Source: Xanthostigma xanthostigma (taxonomy: Eukaryota > Arthropoda > Insecta > Raphidioptera > Raphidiidae). From it: a stretch of DNA of 64,000 nucleotides. Made by a program: the position numbers and the translations under genes. This document shows, in pieces, positions 1,901-62,283 of this stretch (within the stretch, counting starts at the first letter, position 1; every line of letters starts with the position of its first letter). The stretch covers positions 32,930,401 to 32,994,400 of the forward strand of contig OY754471.1 of the NCBI GenBank assembly GCA_963575645.1, read 5' to 3'. The notes beneath the pieces were generated by a model. The model worked only from the letters and a program-made list of their open reading frames with translations. It did not search any database and had not been told where the DNA came from.

Positions 1901-3690
1901 ACCAAAAATCGTCCGATTTCACTACTGTATATGTCAATATTTGTTATATCTACTTGACTTCTTTTTAATTAATAATCAGCAAAACAGTATCGACATATTG
2001 CAATGGTGCATTTCTAGGTTAAGGTACGTTATTTGTCAACCAGCGATCAATAATTAACTCATAAATACGTCATACGAACACTACGGAACACGTACTTAGT
2101 TGATTTTTTTGTAATCTTAAGTTATGAAGATAGCATAAACCGCAATAATAATAATCGTCGTAGGCCGTCAGTTTGAAACCCTGGTTTAAAAAGCAGGAAA
2201 ATCTTGTTATTTGATAACTTATTAGTTAATGTTTCGTGTAATAAATAACGAGATGAATTTCAAACAACTCTTTGAAAGAATGTTGCTGCTGTATTAATCT
2301 CTCTTAATGCGATAAAATGGAATGCTCTAAATATAATCCACTTAAATATAAATCCCTTCGACCTTTATTTGTTAGTGGGGACAAATAGGGACAAATAAGC
2401 TACGGCTTCTAATTTTCCGGTTGACTACGCTGAAAGAAAGTCTTAATGAATATCGAGACTTCTGAATTCATTTCATTTCGCTTCTTTTTATCTTGAATAT
2501 ATGATGCCCCATTATTTTGCATCTACTGGATGTTCAGCATTCAGTAGGTCTGCAAAAACGAATGAATAAATAAATAAAACAGTGCCAAATAAATTTAAAG
2601 ATGAATATTTAAATATGTTTATTTTTTAGATTACCTGTTCGGCCTAAACTGTTTTTTGCTGCACTCACATTTATTCATTTTTAGATTAGAGCACGGGACA
2701 GGTGCAACTAAATAAAAGCTTGTAAAATAGTTGGTTTTCACTTCGTTTCAAGTACCTATATTTTTAAAAATTTTTAATAGTGCACTTTTGAGCAAACTTC
2801 ACTTCTAATAGGTCAGGCTTAAATTCAATAGAGAGATTTAATGTGGAATTGGTACAGCATGACCAGTTTTGTTTTTCATTACAGCACCGTACATGCCTGT
2901 AAGTATACATGTATATAAAGAAGCAATTTTATAGAAGGTAGTGCAAAAATTATTACAGAATCTAGTGCCGGAACTAATTAACACCTACTTACCTTTTTTT
3001 GAGAATTTTCAATACTATAAATCATGATTTATTTTCATTCTTTTCAACTTCTCGGTCTAAGTGGCTGTAATTAGTATAGGTCTTTTAAAAAAAACATCCT
3101 ATATAGGTACATGATGTATAGAGCGTTTTGTTTGCAAGTCTTCACTCATGTATAGAAACTGAATGAGACCGCAGTCTCGCCTTTTCATTAAACTGAGAAA
3201 TGGTTCGTAACTCCATTTTGTTACTTCATTAGCCCTAATGAGTCAAAGGGGCTGACGGGCCTCCTGCACAATGTACAGTACGTATGTGGTGTTTGTGTGT
3301 GTATTTTGGGGGAGTTGGAAGTCCTGCAGCAGGGGTCGGCGGTCGATGAGAGAGCCCCGCGCTCTGATGGATTTAGAGTGTATTCATTGAACGTCATGAA
3401 GACGGAGTGGTCATTTGTATATCCCAGTTCATACAATGGATAGACTGAATACGCTGACAACCGGACTTATAGACTCGTTTTTTTTTTGTTTCCGCTTAAT
3501 ACCAATAATAAAGTTCTGTTCTTGTAATTTAACACATTAATTCAAATCCTGAACTGTACTATTAAAGTCTTCAGCATAAAGTAGTGTTGATCCAATAGCA
3601 TGTTACGATGGAGGATATATAATAGATATAATATATAATAGATATAATATTATGATCTAAATTATAAACATATATACATGTTCATAGGCC
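1901..3690. other. Intergenic or intronic DNA, no gene recognised
   Basis: No supported coding frame. A GC-richer patch at about 3220-3465 contrasts with its surroundings and has an open minus frame of 79 codons that I do not recognise. It could be an untranslated exon, a promoter or an old repeat. A 17-bp AT-rich direct duplication lies at about 3605-3650. Confidence 0.4.
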
Positions 3691-46995: not shown

Positions 46996-48116
46996 TGATG
47001 ATGATGTTCCGTATGTACCTCGATCGAAAGTGCATCAATTGTAAAGCAGAAAGTCTAACATTCACGTATTGGTGGGATTACACGCACCAATGCGGGGGCA
47101 GTAGTAAAGCAAAAACAACCGGTCAACTGTTGTTTAAATGTCGTTTCCATAGCAACCCTATTACATTTTAGCTAATAGTCGCGAACAGCTGTCATTCGTG
47201 TTTTTATGTATAAAGTCAAAGCTGCTTGCTTGGAATTTATTTGTGTTTTATGTAATTAATAAATAAACTAGCGGATAGAATTAACGGATCAAAAAAAATT
47301 CCAAATTTTTTGAGGTTTTTCAAGTGGTTGTATTTCCCTTAAAAATTGTCGTATTGGAATTTTAAAAAAAGGATTTTAAAGCTCGAAGATTCTAGTTTTG
47401 AGATCTTATGATGAAAAATTTTTTCAAGCAACGTGTTCCGCTCAATCCTAATGAATACCGAAGAAAAAAATTTTTCGAAATTTTTTCTGTTTTTTTTTTG
47501 GTCTACGAACTTGGAAAAAAAATTTCGAACTTAACCACTATATGGATCGGATAACTTGTTCGTTCAGCTTTAATTTGCATTTTTGAAAAGTTCGATACGA
47601 CCACTTCTCGCTGAGATATCGAACTTTGAATGGAAAATGATCTTTTTGTCTTTAACCTTCAATATCTCAGCAACCGCTGACCGCACAAGAAAATTAAGGA
47701 GGGTTTTGAAATCTATATATATAAAAATGAATCCCTATATCCCTTGGTCACGCCATCACGCGTGAACGGCTGGACCGATTTCAATATTTATTTTTTGTTG
47801 TGTTTGTTATTGTCAGGAGAAGGTTCTTATGACAGAAAAAATTCAAAAAATTGCCTATATATATCTATATATATAAAAATGAATCCCTATATCCCTTGGT
47901 CACGCCATCACGCATGAACGGCTGGACCGATTTCAATATTTTTTTTTTGTTGTGTTTGTTATTGTCAGGAAAAGGTTCTTATGACAGAAAAAATTTAAAA
48001 AATTGCGCGGAAAAAGAGAAAATTTAAGAATCCTTATTTAAGAAAACTTAACAACCATATATCTAGATCGAGGATGTAAAAAAACTGAATATCGTTTAAA
48101 ACAAATGCTTTTTTTT

Positions 48117-48588
48117 CGAGCACGACGGCGCAGCCGGAGTGAACCCTCGAAATAGAGCAAGTGTTTTAAAGACCAGTTATCCACGAATACTTTACGCTAT
48201 TCTTTTTCGAGCACGACGGCGCAGCCGGAGTGCTCGAAATAGAGCAAGTGTTTTAAAGACCAGTTATCCACACTTTACGCTATTTTTTTTTCGAGCACGG
48301 CGGCGCAGCCGGAGTGCTCGAAATAGAGCAAGTGTTTTAAAGACCAGTTATCCACACTTTACGCTATTTTTTTTTCGAGCACTGCGGCGCAGCCGGAGTG
48401 CTCGAAATAGAGCAAGTGTTTTAAAGACCAGTTATCCACGAATACTTTACGCTATTCTTTTTCGAGCACGACGGCGCAGCCGGAGTGCTCGAAATAGAGC
48501 AAGTGTTTTAAAGACCAGTTATCCACGAATACTTTACGCTATTTTTTTTCGAGCACGAAGTGCACATATACGCCCATGTATATTTTAA
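48117..48588 (+). repeat. 84-91-bp minisatellite in the Helitron
   Basis: Five full units start at 48117, 48208, 48292, 48376 and 48463, with a partial sixth at 48550. Each holds the hairpin CGAGCAC...GTGCTCG around a GGCGCAGCCGGA loop, then AGAGCAAGTGTTTTAAAGAC. Later periods are 84, 84, 87 and 87 bp, all multiples of three, so a 149-codon frame stays open; I regard it as a by-product of unit length. Confidence 0.9.
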
Positions 48589-48608
48589 AATAGCTAGCAA
48601 TTAATAAA

Positions 48609-48630
48609 ATAGATAGATAGATAGATAGAT
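48609..48630 (+). repeat. (GATA)n microsatellite in the Helitron
   Basis: Five ATAG units directly after AATAAA, between the minisatellite and the 3' end. Confidence 0.9.
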
Positions 48631-48987
48631 GTTCCAATTAAATTGTTTTATTAATTATACCAATTCGCCTTAAATAATCATCGTTAAGACAGGACAACGT
48701 CTGTCGGGTCAGCTAGTCTTGAATAAATTTCCCACAAAAATCAGCTATGGTTTTTTGAAAAAAAAATTTTTTTTTCATTCTTTACATTAATTTGTAAAAT
48801 CAAGAAAAAGAGGGCTTTTGGTGGCTTTTGGGATAATCAGGCGCTAAGTTGGAAATATCGAGAAAGCCAGTTATGTTGAGTGTGCCTTTTACAGTTCAAT
48901 ATGCCCACAAAAACCACACAAAGTTTCGATTCAATCCATCGAGCCGTTTTTTTGTTTTATTCGATCGAATTTTTGAAAAAAAAATTG

Positions 48988-49664
48988 GTTGTCTGTAAAG
49001 TCGGTTTACGGACGATAGTTTTACGTGATAACGTATTCCGTAATACATAACCTAAACCTCCCAAAATTTGGTTTCAATCCGCTTATCCTTGGTGTCGGAA
49101 TGATAAGAAATGTCAAAAGTGACGTTTGCAACTTACAAAGTATTATGTTCTAATAATAATTAGTTATTCCAATACTTAACTTAGCAGGCTTTGCATTTCA
49201 CAATATACTAATGTCAAAAAATTGAATTAAACATTAGAAATGCAGCTGTTTTCATGTTAAGACAAGACATACGTTTGCTTCTAATTTCCATGTACGGCAA
49301 ACAAACACAACCGACCGTGTCGCGCCATGCATTACACAACATTGCATTTATACAGCTATTTTTCTATATAAATTTGTATAAAATATTTTTCTATATAAAT
49401 TTGTATAAAAAAACTGTTTAGGCAAATTCTGTTATACGAAATCTATGTAAAATGTTCTCCTCTTTCGTTTAAGACTGGTTTCAAACCGATCTGATTTAAA
49501 TTGAGCGAGAAATTAGCAAAAAGCACGCACAGGATCAGGCGGAACGTTACGCGTTACGAACGTTAGGAACGTTACGACCGTTACACTTTTTCGTGCATGC
49601 AGCCGGTGTTTTATCAATTTATAATATTGGTGATTCATCAATTTATAAGACGTTATCACGTCAA
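48988..49664. mobile_element. Third-level insertion in FB-B (about 677 bp)
   Basis: Absent from the matching position in the right arm of FB-B (about 49930), which reads straight through. Ends are GTTGTCTGTAAAGTCGG at the left and GACGTTATCACGTC at the right; ACGTGATAACG near the left end pairs with the right end. Target duplication is possibly AATT but ambiguous in an A/T run. A cluster of AACGTT/CGTTAC palindromes lies near 49550. No coding frame; class unknown. Confidence 0.7.
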
Positions 49665-51164
49665 AAATTAAAGGATCACGATTTTGACTTTAAATGATCT
49701 TTAACAAAATGCAAAAAAAAATGTTTTTTTCAGTTTTTTTATGCATTTTTATTGGTAAAAATGTTTAAATTTATGCAAAATTTATGCATTAGAGCGTGCA
49801 CTTCTGCAAATTTTTTTTCGCATAAATTTAAACATTTTTACCAATAAAAATGCATAAAAAAACTGAAAAAAACATTTTTTTTTGCATTTTGTTAAAGATC
49901 ATTTAAAGTCAAAATTGTGATCCTTCAATTTTTTTTCAAAAATTCGATCAAATAAAACAAAAAAACGGCTCGATGGATTGAATCGAAACTTTGTGTGGTT
50001 TTTGTGGGCATATTGAACTGTAAAAGGCACACTCAACATAACTGGCTTTCTCGATATTTCCAACTTAGCGCCTGATTATCCCAAAAGCCACCAAAAGCAC
50101 TTTTTTCTTGATTTTTCAAATTAATGTAAAGAATGAAAAAAAATTTTTTTTCAAAAAACCGTAGCTGATTTTTGTGGGAAATTTATTCAAGATTTCGAAA
50201 CCGTCCTTAATTTTCTTGTGCGGTCAGCGGTTGCTGAGATATTGAAGGTTAAAGACAAAAAGATCCTTTTCCATTTAAAGTTCGATATCTCAACGAGAAG
50301 TGGGCGTATCGAACTTTTCAAAAAAGCAAATTAAAGCTAAATGAACAAGTTATCCGATCCGTATAGTGGTTAAGTTGGAAATTTTTTTCCAAGTTCGTAG
50401 ACCAAAAAAAAGAACAGAAAAAATTTCGAAAAATGTTTTTCTTCGGTATTCATTAGGATTGAGCGGAACACGTTGCTTGAAAAAATTTTTCATCATAAGA
50501 TCTCAAAACTAGAAACTTCGAGCTTTAAAATCCTTTTTTTAAAATTCCAGTACGACAATTTTTAAGGGAAATACAGCCACTTGAAAAACCTCGAAAACTT
50601 TGGAAATTTTTTTTGATCCTTTAATTCTTTCCGCTAGTGTAGTTAATTAATGTATTTAATAAGCCATACTTACGACCGGGGTATGAAGAAAAATCGTATA
50701 CACCATACTGGCCGAAAGTGTGAATTTGCAATAAAAAATTAAATGTTGAATTTAAAACAATTTCTTTAAAATTTCAATGTCTCTTTTCTGTTGATCGATA
50801 TTTAAATGGAAAATAGCATATTTGAAGGTGAATATATTTTTTAGATTCTAGAGAATGTCGATGTCGCTACTTCTCTCAATTTACCGACACTGTTTTTATA
50901 ATCAGAGTTATTTGATGCGTATGATAAATTTTAAAATTAATAACATTCCTTCCTGCGTCGCGAGCGGCGCGGCGTCTGTGTTATAAACTGCCTGTGTAAT
51001 CGCTTCCCCTGCTTTCTAATTTCCCTGTCACTGCATCCGTGCGCTATCTAGTTGTGTTTAATTTAGTATTTATTGTCAGTTGCGAAGGAATGTCAGATAT
51101 TAAAATATCATAAATCAGATTTCATTCCTATCAGTCCACAATGGAATATTCTAACCTATATTAT

Positions 51165-51440
51165 AAATAATGTGAAAATCGGTTTGTATGAATGTTTGTT
51201 CCTAAATCACGCCTCTAAGACCTAGCGAATGTGAATGAAATTTTGCATACATGTAATTTTTTACTCAGATTACTACTTTTTACCCGACTGCGGCGAAGCC
51301 AAAAGGAAGGGTTAAGAGTTTAGCAGTCTATGTATGTTTGTATTTGCGGATGTTCCACCGTAACGCCTAAACTATTCATCCGATTTTGATAAATAAGGTG
51401 TCACTCGATTTGTTATTATGACCCGGGTAACAGAGGCTAT
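51165..51440 (+). repeat. Two common insect repeat fragments
   Basis: GAAAATCGGTTTGTATGAAT then CACGCCTCTAAGACC (51170-51260) is followed by ACCCGACTGCGGCGAAGCC, AAAAGGAAGGGTTA and CATCCGATTTTGATAAATAA (51285-51400). Both are recurrent in insect genomes by memory; no ends defined. Confidence 0.45.
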
Positions 51441-51789
51441 AATATGATAAAGAAAATAAAATTTCTGATATCGCGTGAGGTGACGCGGATAATGGCTAGT
51501 ATTCAATATGATATTTGCTATTCGTTGCCATGGTTACCTACATAATATGTTCCATATCATGTAATCAAGACATGCTTAACTAGTTTATTTCTCTACACAA
51601 CAAAACAACAGCTGATTTTTTTTATTTTCAAAATATTAACAAAACTATAAAGTTTAAAAAAAATGTTTAACGAAACTTTCTTGAAAAAATGCATAGAATA
51701 ATAAGTCGTTATGAAAAGTATACCATTATCATATAAAAAATACCGTTATGGCATGCATCTCTTCTGCGCAGGCGCTGATTTCCTCCAAA

Positions 51790-52015
51790 AACAATAGGGC
51801 TCTTCATATTTCCATACCAAACAACGTCCCAAGATTTGGTTTCAATCCGATCATCCGTTTGACCTGTATCGTGCTCATAGATAAACAGACGCACAGAGTT
51901 TTTCCAAAAATATATTTTTTGGATCCGGGGGACCTCAAATCGAAAAGATATTGCAAATTTTTGAAAAGTGATTTTCAACCTAAACTATTCCTCACTTGTG
52001 GGTTGGAATAGTAAA
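51790..52015 (+). repeat. Dispersed repeat with CAGACGCACAGAGT box, copy 2
   Basis: ATAAACAGACGCACAGAGTT, TTTGGATCCGGGGGACCTC and TTTTCAACCTAAACTATTCC match 29910-30085. It lies in the interior of FB-A. Open frames on both strands here are incidental. Confidence 0.65.
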
Positions 52016-52726
52016 ACTATTTAAACGTCTTTTTGAAGTAAAACTTCTTTACGCACGCTTGACTTGGGGAGTAAGCTGGTGAATGCCTGACGAGAGATTT
52101 ACGGAAGTGTGATCGGGCGAGGCGAACGGAAGTTGAGAGGGAGATATGAGTTAGTGAAGATAGAAAAAGGATGACAAATACTTCACTGGCTGGTCGAAAC
52201 CAATACTTCACTTGTAGTGGCGCCATCAAGTGGCCGAAAATATAAGCAGTAGTAACAATAGAATGACACATACTTTACTTGCCAGTGGCGCTATCAAGTG
52301 ACAGAAAAAGTTTTGTAAACCTACTTAACTTGCAGAGCTAAATAATATTTCATAAAGATTTACGCTTAAAATCCAACGAGAGCTAAGTAATTGCAATGTA
52401 TTACTTTTGTTTTCATTATCTTTTTGTTTATATTTCTTTCTTCTTACATTAGATGATTAGACTATTCATTTCGTTCTAGAACAATTTTATAAATTAATAT
52501 TTTGTCCAATACATTAAATATTATACATTTAAAGTGAATAAAATTGTAAAATCATTTTGAAGTTCATATTTTCTGAATTTTGGGTGAATAATAACAAGTT
52601 ATGGCAGGAAGAAGTTTTACTTGTAGTCTAAAGCACACTCGTTTTTTGTATCTATTCTAGGAATTTTTCACTGTTACGGTGAACACACTATAATTATATG
52701 ATTTTTTTTCTTTTGGGGCCATATAG

Positions 52727-52727
<1 letters not shown>

Positions 52728-52770
<43 letters not shown>
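52728..52770. repeat. (AT)n microsatellite
   Basis: Uninterrupted TA dinucleotides over about 43 bp. Confidence 0.95.
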
Positions 52771-52774
<4 letters not shown>

Positions 52775-53653
52775 CAGTAACGTTTTACCGATGAACAAAC
52801 GTTTCTCTCCTTAACATATTCGATATAATCTGGGATAGCAGGTACTTTCCTCCAGTCAGATGTATAAAGATAATGTGTTTTGTTATTGTTACATAAAAAA
52901 CAGACCGAGTGCACGGCAGCATAACACGGCACAACATAAATATTCCGTATATAACTCGTCTTTTTCTTTCTCAAAACATCTTCATCTTATTCCTCGTTGC
53001 CTTAACCATAAATCGTTCTTTTGTTCCACATCAACAATGTTATGTACTGTTGTTGGGCTGTTCCAAAGCCAGTATAGACTTTGCTTATATATATCCGTTG
53101 CTTGTTTCGCGGAAGCTATTTGTTTTCCAAGACCATGGACCTCTCCACTCATATAGGACATAATTGAGAACTGCAGGTGAACAAATATACCTAAAACACT
53201 AAAGTGCAAAACATTGTCATTGAAGTGTATTTTTATTCGAGTTCAGAACATTTTCGTTAATAGTATATTACACCACCTCGCGAACACAATGACGCAAAGT
53301 ATCACACTTTCGGCCAGTGTGGTGTATACTATTTCTCTTCATATTTCGGTGACAAGTACGCTTATTAAATACATTAATTAATTAATTACTTATTAATTAC
53401 ATAAAAACACAGATAAATTCCAAGCAAACAGCTTTGACGTAAAATCACGAATGACAGCTGGTCGCGACTATTAGCTGAAAATAATGTAATATGGAAACGA
53501 CATCTAAACATTAGTTGATAGGTTATTTTTACTTTACTGCCGCTCGAACGTACGTACTTCCCGCATCAGTGCGTGTAATCCCACCAATGCGTAAATGTTA
53601 AACTTTCTGCCTTGCAATTAATGCCGATAGTCTGTACTTTCGATCGAAATATG

Positions 53654-54283
53654 GCGAAAATGTATTTAATGCTAAAGTAAATAAAAAAAGCGTCCCGGGA
53701 ATTTCGGGCATGAACTCCCTCCCCTAATGTGTCATGTGTGAGCAAATGAGATTGCGGCTATTGATCTATCTATGTTTAATATATATTGAAGATGTTTTCA
53801 GACCATTCCGCGGTTAGCACCGATCGTTATGCCTATGTGTCCAATCCGAAACTGAATACAAGCTATACAGGAACAGCACTATCTAGTTCAGGAATCGACA
53901 GTCTGTGACTTGTTGGCTGCATGCAACTCTAAACACGTAAATTGTAAATGCTTCAACAAACCAATCCGCTCATAGAGCGGTTGCGGTTGCGTGGGCACTG
54001 TGCGGGCGTGTTGCAATTGGGGGGTAGTTTCAATCAAAAGCGCACAATTTGTGTTTTGATTGTGACTCGAGTACATGTCTCTCAGTCTCTGTCTCTTTTG
54101 TTTAAATTTTGGAGTTATTTTAAAAGTAATAGAAAATGACTACTGTGACAAACTTAAATCGTAAATTAGAGGATTTTGCTGCACATTTAGTATCTTCGAA
54201 CGTTTCGAAATTTTGATCGCACATTGCACATAATTAAAAAAATTGGATGCAAGACGTAAATTAAGAAAATAGCACAACTTGTA
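53654..54283. other. No gene recognised
   Basis: Moderate-GC DNA right of FB-A. A short frame at 54138-54214 (MTTVTNLNRKLEDFAAHLVS) follows a pyrimidine-rich stretch but is too short to support. Confidence 0.3.
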
Positions 54284-61224: not shown

Positions 61225-62283
61225 ATGCCTAACGACGATATGAACCCGTCCACAAGTGGGACCAGACAGTCCACAGGCGGAATTAGCCCCACCGTAGTAA
61301 CCCTCGAGTATCCAAGACCGGGATTGGGACAGTTTGCGAACGCAATAGAAACATTTTCGGGGAAAGAAAATATTAGAGAATTTTTTAAAAGGGCTGAGCA
61401 ACGGGCTGATTTAGATAGCATTCCTCTCTCATCCCTATTAAAAGTTATTAAATGTAAGCTAACAGGGTCCGCTTATACCTACTTTGAAAGTACTCCTTTT
61501 CTGTCGGACGCAACAACCACATATGAGCAATTTAAAAACTCTTTAATCAATCAATTTTCTCCGCGACGAAGCACAGGATCGTCAAGATTTAGATTAACGC
61601 AGGTTTATCAAAGAAATGGAGAATCAGTTAGGGATTTTGCGCTGAGATTAAAATCCGTTGGTATGGAAACCTTAGCAGAAAAGTTGGAAAATGCGACCGA
61701 AAATCAACGTGCGGGTATAATTAAAACAAACACCGATGATGTGCTGGCACAATTTAGAATGGGGTTAAGAAGCGACATAGCTAGAGCAATTGGTACCATA
61801 ATGGCGTTACAGGATGGTTTAGATATTGACAGAGCCATTGATATCGCCGAGGAAGAAGAATTAAACCAGGGTATGTTAAACCCTACTAGAGGCACGGTAC
61901 ATGCGGTAGTAAAGCCAGATCAAAGACAACAATTTGAAAGGAACCAATCAACAGTAATAAAATGTTATAATTGTTGTCGCGAGGGACACTTTGCTCGGGA
62001 CTGCAAAAGTCCAGTGACGTGTTTACAATGTGGTAAAGAGGGTCATAGAAGAAATAATTGCCATATGGCTATGCAGAGAAACCATATGCAGAGAAGCCAC
62101 ATGCAGAGAAATTCCCAATGGAATAATAAAAGGAGCGATGACAGATACAATAGAGACATAAGTACCTGGGAAAAGAGAAACCAAGCAGACAGAAGAGAGA
62201 CAGCGCAACCGAATAGACGTGAGAATTTAAACGCCGTTGGCACCTCGAAGGAAGTTCTCCGCTTCGGGGGAAGCCGAAAGTAA
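61225..62283 (+). CDS. Gag polyprotein of the gypsy element
   Basis: A 352-residue frame. The N-terminal half has the capsid-like fold region of Ty3/gypsy gags (LIDQF-type block reads NSLINQFSPRR, then RLTQVYQRNGESVRDFALRL). Two CCHC zinc knuckles follow at about residues 247-260 (CYNCCREGHFARDC) and 266-279 (CLQCGKEGHRRNNC), for binding the element RNA. A basic tail with three HMQR repeats follows. Start chosen at the first ATG of the frame after the leader. Confidence 0.93.
   Translation: MPNDDMNPSTSGTRQSTGGISPTVVTLEYPRPGLGQFANAIETFSGKENIREFFKRAEQRADLDSIPLSSLLKVIKCKLTGSAYTYFESTPFLSDATTTYEQFKNSLINQFSPRRSTGSSRFRLTQVYQRNGESVRDFALRLKSVGMETLAEKLENATENQRAGIIKTNTDDVLAQFRMGLRSDIARAIGTIMALQDGLDIDRAIDIAEEEELNQGMLNPTRGTVHAVVKPDQRQQFERNQSTVIKCYNCCREGHFARDCKSPVTCLQCGKEGHRRNNCHMAMQRNHMQRSHMQRNSQWNNKRSDDRYNRDISTWEKRNQADRRETAQPNRRENLNAVGTSKEVLRFGGSRK

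Follow-up and report, generated by a model that had tools for sequence, protein, structure and literature searches.

A palindromic, TA-flanked element carrying two insertions within a solo HINE-like repeat of Xanthostigma xanthostigma

HINE/DINE-1 elements are defined, in the passages of PMC4067079 that describe them, by a layout of sub-terminal inverted repeats and a 3′ hairpin, with T-rich flanks. Among elements with extended inverted repeats, Bari variants carry long inverted repeats of ~250 bp according to the relevant part of PMC4877112, and Galileo is placed in the P superfamily, with 7-bp duplications, in the portions of PMC2775673 devoted to it. The same portions give the TIRs of GalileoN-1 and GalileoN-2 as >99% alike within each element and ~7% apart between the two, and report the reverse pattern for two Galileo copies at inversion breakpoints, which are explained there as chimeras. 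The TIR repeats of Tetris group by element in two of three complete elements (excerpts of PMC4079207), and breakage at palindrome centers is known for the PATRRs (excerpts of PMC4255720).

The window analyzed here is a 64,000-bp stretch of the 623-Mb Xanthostigma xanthostigma genome, positions 32930401 to 32994400 of its contig (OY754471.1). It contains a layered set of insertions, in which a solo HINE-like repeat houses the element FB-B and FB-B houses both a Helitron and an element of ~680 bp. The nest is genuine and well preserved but ordinary, and no new mechanism is involved. As to the order of events, a solo repeat of ~350 to 400 bp was present first; FB-B, which is palindromic and TA-duplicating, then entered the TTAATTAA tract of this repeat; and the Helitron and the ~680-bp element later entered the left arm of FB-B. 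A second solo copy of the outer repeat, located ~2.6 kb away in the opposite orientation, mimics the other arm of a foldback element. We hold this account as a whole, comprising ordinary nested transposition, two solo repeats that mimic foldback arms, and the FB-B behavior proposed below, to be very probable. Outside the nest, window positions 61225 to 62283 (plus strand) hold a frame of 352 amino acids that matches Retrotrans_gag and a zinc knuckle and belongs to an LTR-type retroelement.

With its inserts, FB-B spans positions 47266 to 50639, as the preliminary description had placed it, and the TA flanks claimed there lie at 47264 to 47265 and 50640 to 50641. Without the inserts, it measures about 1,687 bp and is palindromic almost throughout, the arms (~825 bp each) making up nearly all of it. 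Alignment of the arms divides the left arm (plus strand) into an outer block (47266 to 47711), a middle block (48717 to 48985), and an inner block (49668 to 49780), which align to the right arm over 456 columns at 95.4% identity, 264 columns at 98.5%, and 118 columns at 97.5%, respectively. A 35-bp loop, or spacer, follows at 49781 to 49815, and the right arm (minus strand) runs uninterrupted from 49816 to 50639, as judged from the arm alignment and a search for the insertion sites. The nest had been said to depend on inserts confined to one arm and on a continuous assembly; the alignment places neither insert in the right arm, and the window contains 0 N and no visible join.

The Helitron (TC...CTAG; plus strand) was delimited from its junctions, internal repeats, and genome copies, and it occupies positions 47712 to 48716 of the left arm only, exactly as first read. 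It lies between the host bases A (47711) and T (48717) with no duplication, the flanks rejoin as GAAA^TCTTG, which is the reading of the right arm, and the right arm itself reads GAAATCTTG uninterrupted. The uninterrupted site, with up to 4 edits allowed, is present once in the window, in the right arm, and at 49/55 other FB-B loci, where the misses may include copies with the region deleted or with a short fetched stretch. Neither Rep nor Helicase was seen in the Helitron, in which the sole frame of at least 110 amino acids is that of the minisatellite (149 amino acids), with no Pfam match above the curated cutoff. The minisatellite comprises about five units of 84 to 87 bp at 48109 to 48558. 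The first 152 bp of the Helitron are present in tandem (97% identity; window positions 47711 to 48006), and many of the scored genome copies begin at query position 1 or near position 152. The Helitron looks lepidopteran in kind, but TTAGG in five tandem copies was not found in the genome.

The second insert, first placed at 48988 to 49664 (677 bp), was located to within 3 bp, as it spans 48986 to 49667 once the terminal A/T runs are included. It lies on the minus strand, with its presumed 3′ end at 48986, and was aligned with 29 other copies. The element sits within an A-run, and its terminal bases are not assignable; an A-run is present on one side in 30/30 aligned copies, and the other side reads CAAAA in 28/30 and CAATA in 2/30. 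The A-run would mask any duplication of bases. The uninterrupted site (up to 4 edits) was found once in the window, in the right arm, and at 45/55 other FB-B loci, where the misses may again include deleted or briefly fetched copies; FB-B copies without the insertions, for which a genome search had been proposed, were thus found at most of these loci. Read on the minus strand, the element has a T-run followed by GACGTGATAACGTC, with TACGTTATCACGTA ahead of the other end; these are sub-terminal palindromic repeats of 12 to 15 bp, one at one end and one just inside the other. A candidate 3′ stem, GTCCGTAAA..TTTACAGAC, is visible in the alignment, with a folding z score (−0.60) no better than that of shuffled sequences. 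Among its best matches, this is a young family, in which 28 of the 29 other copies differ from the consensus at 1 to 4 of about 669 sites and one differs at 14; the window copy has 8 differences in 673 sites. Elsewhere, an element of the ~680-bp type lies within another copy of the HINE-like unit (locus L054, 1359 to 2340), the same pairing of families, and a second, partial copy directly adjoins the ~680-bp element at locus L055 (near position 2180), as in tandem arrays.

The outer element, FB-A, had been described as one inverted-repeat element with its left arm split by FB-B. The left of its two components consists of a 5′ part at 47016 to 47265 (plus strand), which aligns to seven other loci (L002 to L008) and ends in the TA target copy, and a 3′ part at 50640 to 50723 (plus strand), which begins with the second TA and in which the 3′ hairpin is cut short, with half of it lost. 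The right component, identified by genome comparison, alignment, and folding, lies at 53258 to 53667 (minus strand) and retains the 3′ hairpin; the fold of 53255 to 53345 on the minus strand has an energy of −14.3 kcal/mol (z score, −3.91). From 5′ to 3′, the unit consists of a T-run, the sub-terminal repeat, a TTAATTAA tract that is variable, the same repeat in inverted form, and the 3′ hairpin. The sub-terminal TTTTTCTTCATACCTCGATCG at the 5′ side, inverted before the hairpin, can be read clearly in most of the seven copies from elsewhere, and both window copies hold it in degraded form. A T-run marks the 5′ end of most copies, for which no empty site was found, and frames of at least 110 amino acids are absent from the window copies of both this unit and the ~680-bp element.

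At each of the seven other loci, a single stretch of ~350 bp matches the left component directly and the right one in reverse, which contradicts the description of FB-A as one element. A single old foldback element, with ~330-bp arms, a 2.6-kb interior, and a left arm split by FB-B, would fit the inverted copies that flank the region and are 87 to 89% alike over two aligned blocks, yet we regard it as very unlikely. No second unit is present within the fetched 1.5 kb on each side at the seven loci. When nine units are aligned, the supposed arms are 86.8% identical and differ in internal indels, no closer than unrelated copies: the left unit is 88.7 to 92.3% identical to the seven others, which are its own best matches (40 scored of 2,403 candidates) and so favored over the right unit, and the right unit is 84.8 to 87.8% identical to six of them and 92.0% identical to one. 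One other facing pair exists among the scored matches, at a different spacing of about 55 bp. A search with the right arm and the interior yields matches confined to the unit (40 scored of 3,294 candidates), and the interior stretches 50724 to 51241 and 52652 to 53257 have no other match among the 40 scored of 3,447 and of 3,294 candidates, respectively, lists that are filled by common repeats and that a weak second interior copy could escape. The same searches bear on a composite of the two units and the intervening DNA, moved once as a block. Inverted flanking copies could in principle serve as ends for such a block, but no second copy of it is found among the scored matches, and chance alone is expected to yield about 14 to 26 inverted pairs of units within 3 kb, 7 to 13 of them facing, in 623 Mb, if all 2,403 to 3,294 first-look candidates are real units; we consider the composite scarcely credible. 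Because the unit is solitary at the seven other loci, the left-right identity is low, and the two interior stretches have no other scored match, FB-A is best read as two separate insertions, in opposite orientations, of one common repeat of ~350 to 400 bp. The interior also contains three separate repeats that the first reading had missed, at about 51277 to 51439 (39 other scored matches overlap it at 89 to 96%, some beginning up to 35 bp earlier), 51443 to 52016 (85 to 87% in the longer scored matches), and 52030 to 52645 (85 to 91%, with some matches extending to 52651).

Two solo repeats in place of one foldback element also change what can be read from the locus. The claim that both hosts are inverted repeats, each with an intact arm preserving the empty site, stands for FB-B and its two inserts and fails for FB-A, where the site of FB-B itself is available only in a paralogous copy (86.8%); in this right HINE-like copy, the site is a variable TTAATTAA tract and serves no better than other genome copies. 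The insertion order is legible to the extent that the unit preceded FB-B and FB-B preceded both inserts, but the order of the Helitron relative to the ~680-bp element is not readable.

FB-B belongs to a family with 613 candidate copies in the genome, for which no description was found in the open-licence literature. The first 100 of 159 tips include 18 facing pairs within 10 kb of each other, 12 at 1,693 to 1,701 bp, 6 shorter, and 0 longer, placing the intact element at ~1.69 kb; the window copy is absent from these 18 pairs. TA adjoins both tips under a strict motif in 18/22 copies with both ends, plus the window copy. The misses are a variant tip beside TA (L069), a tip without one base (L032), a mis-cut copy with TA visible at both ends (L031), and a lost right tip (L010). 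The longest stop-to-stop frame within the right arm is 65 amino acids, and no Pfam match was found at 0.1 in the 7 of 11 listed FB-B frames that were scanned. No autonomous relative was found at 30 tip-bearing loci (16 plus 14), all of which hold FB-B or deletion forms. FB-B may be among the elements moved in trans by a Tc1/mariner-type transposase.

The preliminary description proposed dating the layers by counting differences between the FB-B arms. Across 17 copies including the window copy, and leaving out L083, which lacks the loop motif though it is among the 17 near-whole copies, the arms are 2.16% divergent within a copy, versus, in comparisons across copies, 4.23% for arms of the same side and 4.33% for arms of opposite sides; none of 20,000 shuffles was as low. 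The 99 informative sites comprise 37 shared by both arms of a copy, 62 mixed, and 0 fixed by arm. The nearest neighbor is the arm's own partner for 20/34 arms and an arm of another copy for 14/34. Six copies fetched later behave alike, with 1.91% divergence within versus 4.00 to 4.11% between copies, a value reached by 31/20,000 shuffles. L010 (5.2%) departs from the pattern, as do L032 and L037, in which the arms of one copy match those of the other. We infer that a single split of the arms, with no later exchange, could not give the general pattern, and that the arms are probably kept alike via gene conversion or template copying between them. Because the arms are homogenized within a copy relative to other copies, their divergence is no insertion clock, and the proposed dating is invalid. 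The arms of the window copy are 3.2 to 3.3% apart; each arm has 11 changes private to the copy, and 2 more are common to both arms. Private changes were also tried as a measure of relative age and rejected, as these FB-B counts and the 8/673 of the ~680-bp element separate the layers poorly.

Many FB-B copies are incomplete. The 41 distinct copies comprise 17 that are whole or nearly so, 8 with an internal deletion, and 16 with a single tip, and 14 further copies comprise 8 with internal deletions and 6 with a single tip; in these latter 8 deletions, the second tip was seen in L085, L086, L088, and L090, is nearly whole in L095, and was unseen in L087, L089, and L092. The single-tip ends lie within 170 bp of the palindrome center in 15/22 copies (null mean, 5.3) and within ~45 bp of the loop in 9/22 (null, 2.1). 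An expectation set before the second fetch, that at least half of the new ends would lie within 170 bp, is matched by 4/6 ends in a fetch smaller than planned. The break point at 981 is that of an amplified deletion derivative, which inflated the initial count and was removed from the truncation count; L080, with its break at 982, may be of this form, and the count without it is 14/21. If the far ends of L079, L087, and L089 are then counted too, which are outside the main count because an internal deletion is also present, it is 14/24 (null, 5.8; P = 0.0003). L031, L086, and L090 share the deletion form, in which a short second tip follows reference position 981; it is probably a shorter FB-B subfamily that has been amplified. 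L085 resembles it, with a break at 819. Since a one-tip copy should be immobile, the single-tip ends are probably separate events, and many copies were probably severed where the palindrome folds. Cunningham and others (2003) is reportedly among the work cited in the context of PATRR center breakage.

Both features of the family admit other explanations. Within-copy likeness of the arms could reflect recent, independent re-formation of the palindrome by inverted duplication in several source lineages, which, like conversion, yields copy-shared variants in both arms. However, the 35-bp loop has the same length in 10/10 other full copies and is not obviously kept by repeated re-formation, and we consider this origin unlikely. 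The single-tip copies, for their part, could be artefacts of assembly or amplification, as palindromic DNA resists sequencing and cloning and, in the part of PMC4255720 that treats it, a PATRR8 database deletion is judged an artefact of bacterial culture. Against this, 17/41 copies were assembled whole or nearly so and the break points vary in position and flank, and we consider such artefacts quite improbable. Homogenization between arms and breakage near the center are the readings we retain. A broader one is tentative at best, namely, that the fate of FB-B palindromes is set by folding, with arms copied onto each other, copies severed at the loop, and an insertion in one arm, such as the window copy has, exempting the copy that bears it from both processes and preserving it.

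The nest is a clear teaching example, with insertion sites that can be checked inside one locus, and it carries a lesson for annotation, in that two opposite solo Helentron-type repeats had been taken for a foldback element. FB-B is more interesting than the nest, as its palindromes form an abundant family and a single genome suffices to count arm homogenization and center breakage. If folding did set the fate of its copies, the family would serve as a natural assay for how palindromes are repaired in the germ line of an animal.

Like HINE/DINE-1 elements, the outer unit and the ~680-bp element have sub-terminal inverted repeats and a 3′ end that continues past the inner one; their flanks appear T-rich, and their window copies have no long frame. 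Further features of the unit are a microsatellite and a strong 3′ hairpin. The hairpin of the ~680-bp element is weak in folding. Both short repeats would, on these features, be Helentron derivatives. The insert at 47712 to 48716 resembles a canonical Helitron in its 5′ TC, 3′ CTAG, A|T site, and lack of duplication and differs in having no visible Rep/Helicase and an internally tandem 5′ end. FB-B shares a TA target, TIRs, and the lack of a recognized coding frame with Tc1/mariner-type MITEs and the long-TIR Bari elements, but its arms are nearly the whole element. Like Galileo and other Foldback-like elements, it has very long TIRs that are closer within a copy than between copies; unlike Galileo, which duplicates 7 bp, it duplicates TA. 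Both behaviors of FB-B are thus precedented, arm homogenization in the TIRs of Galileo and center breakage in other palindromes.
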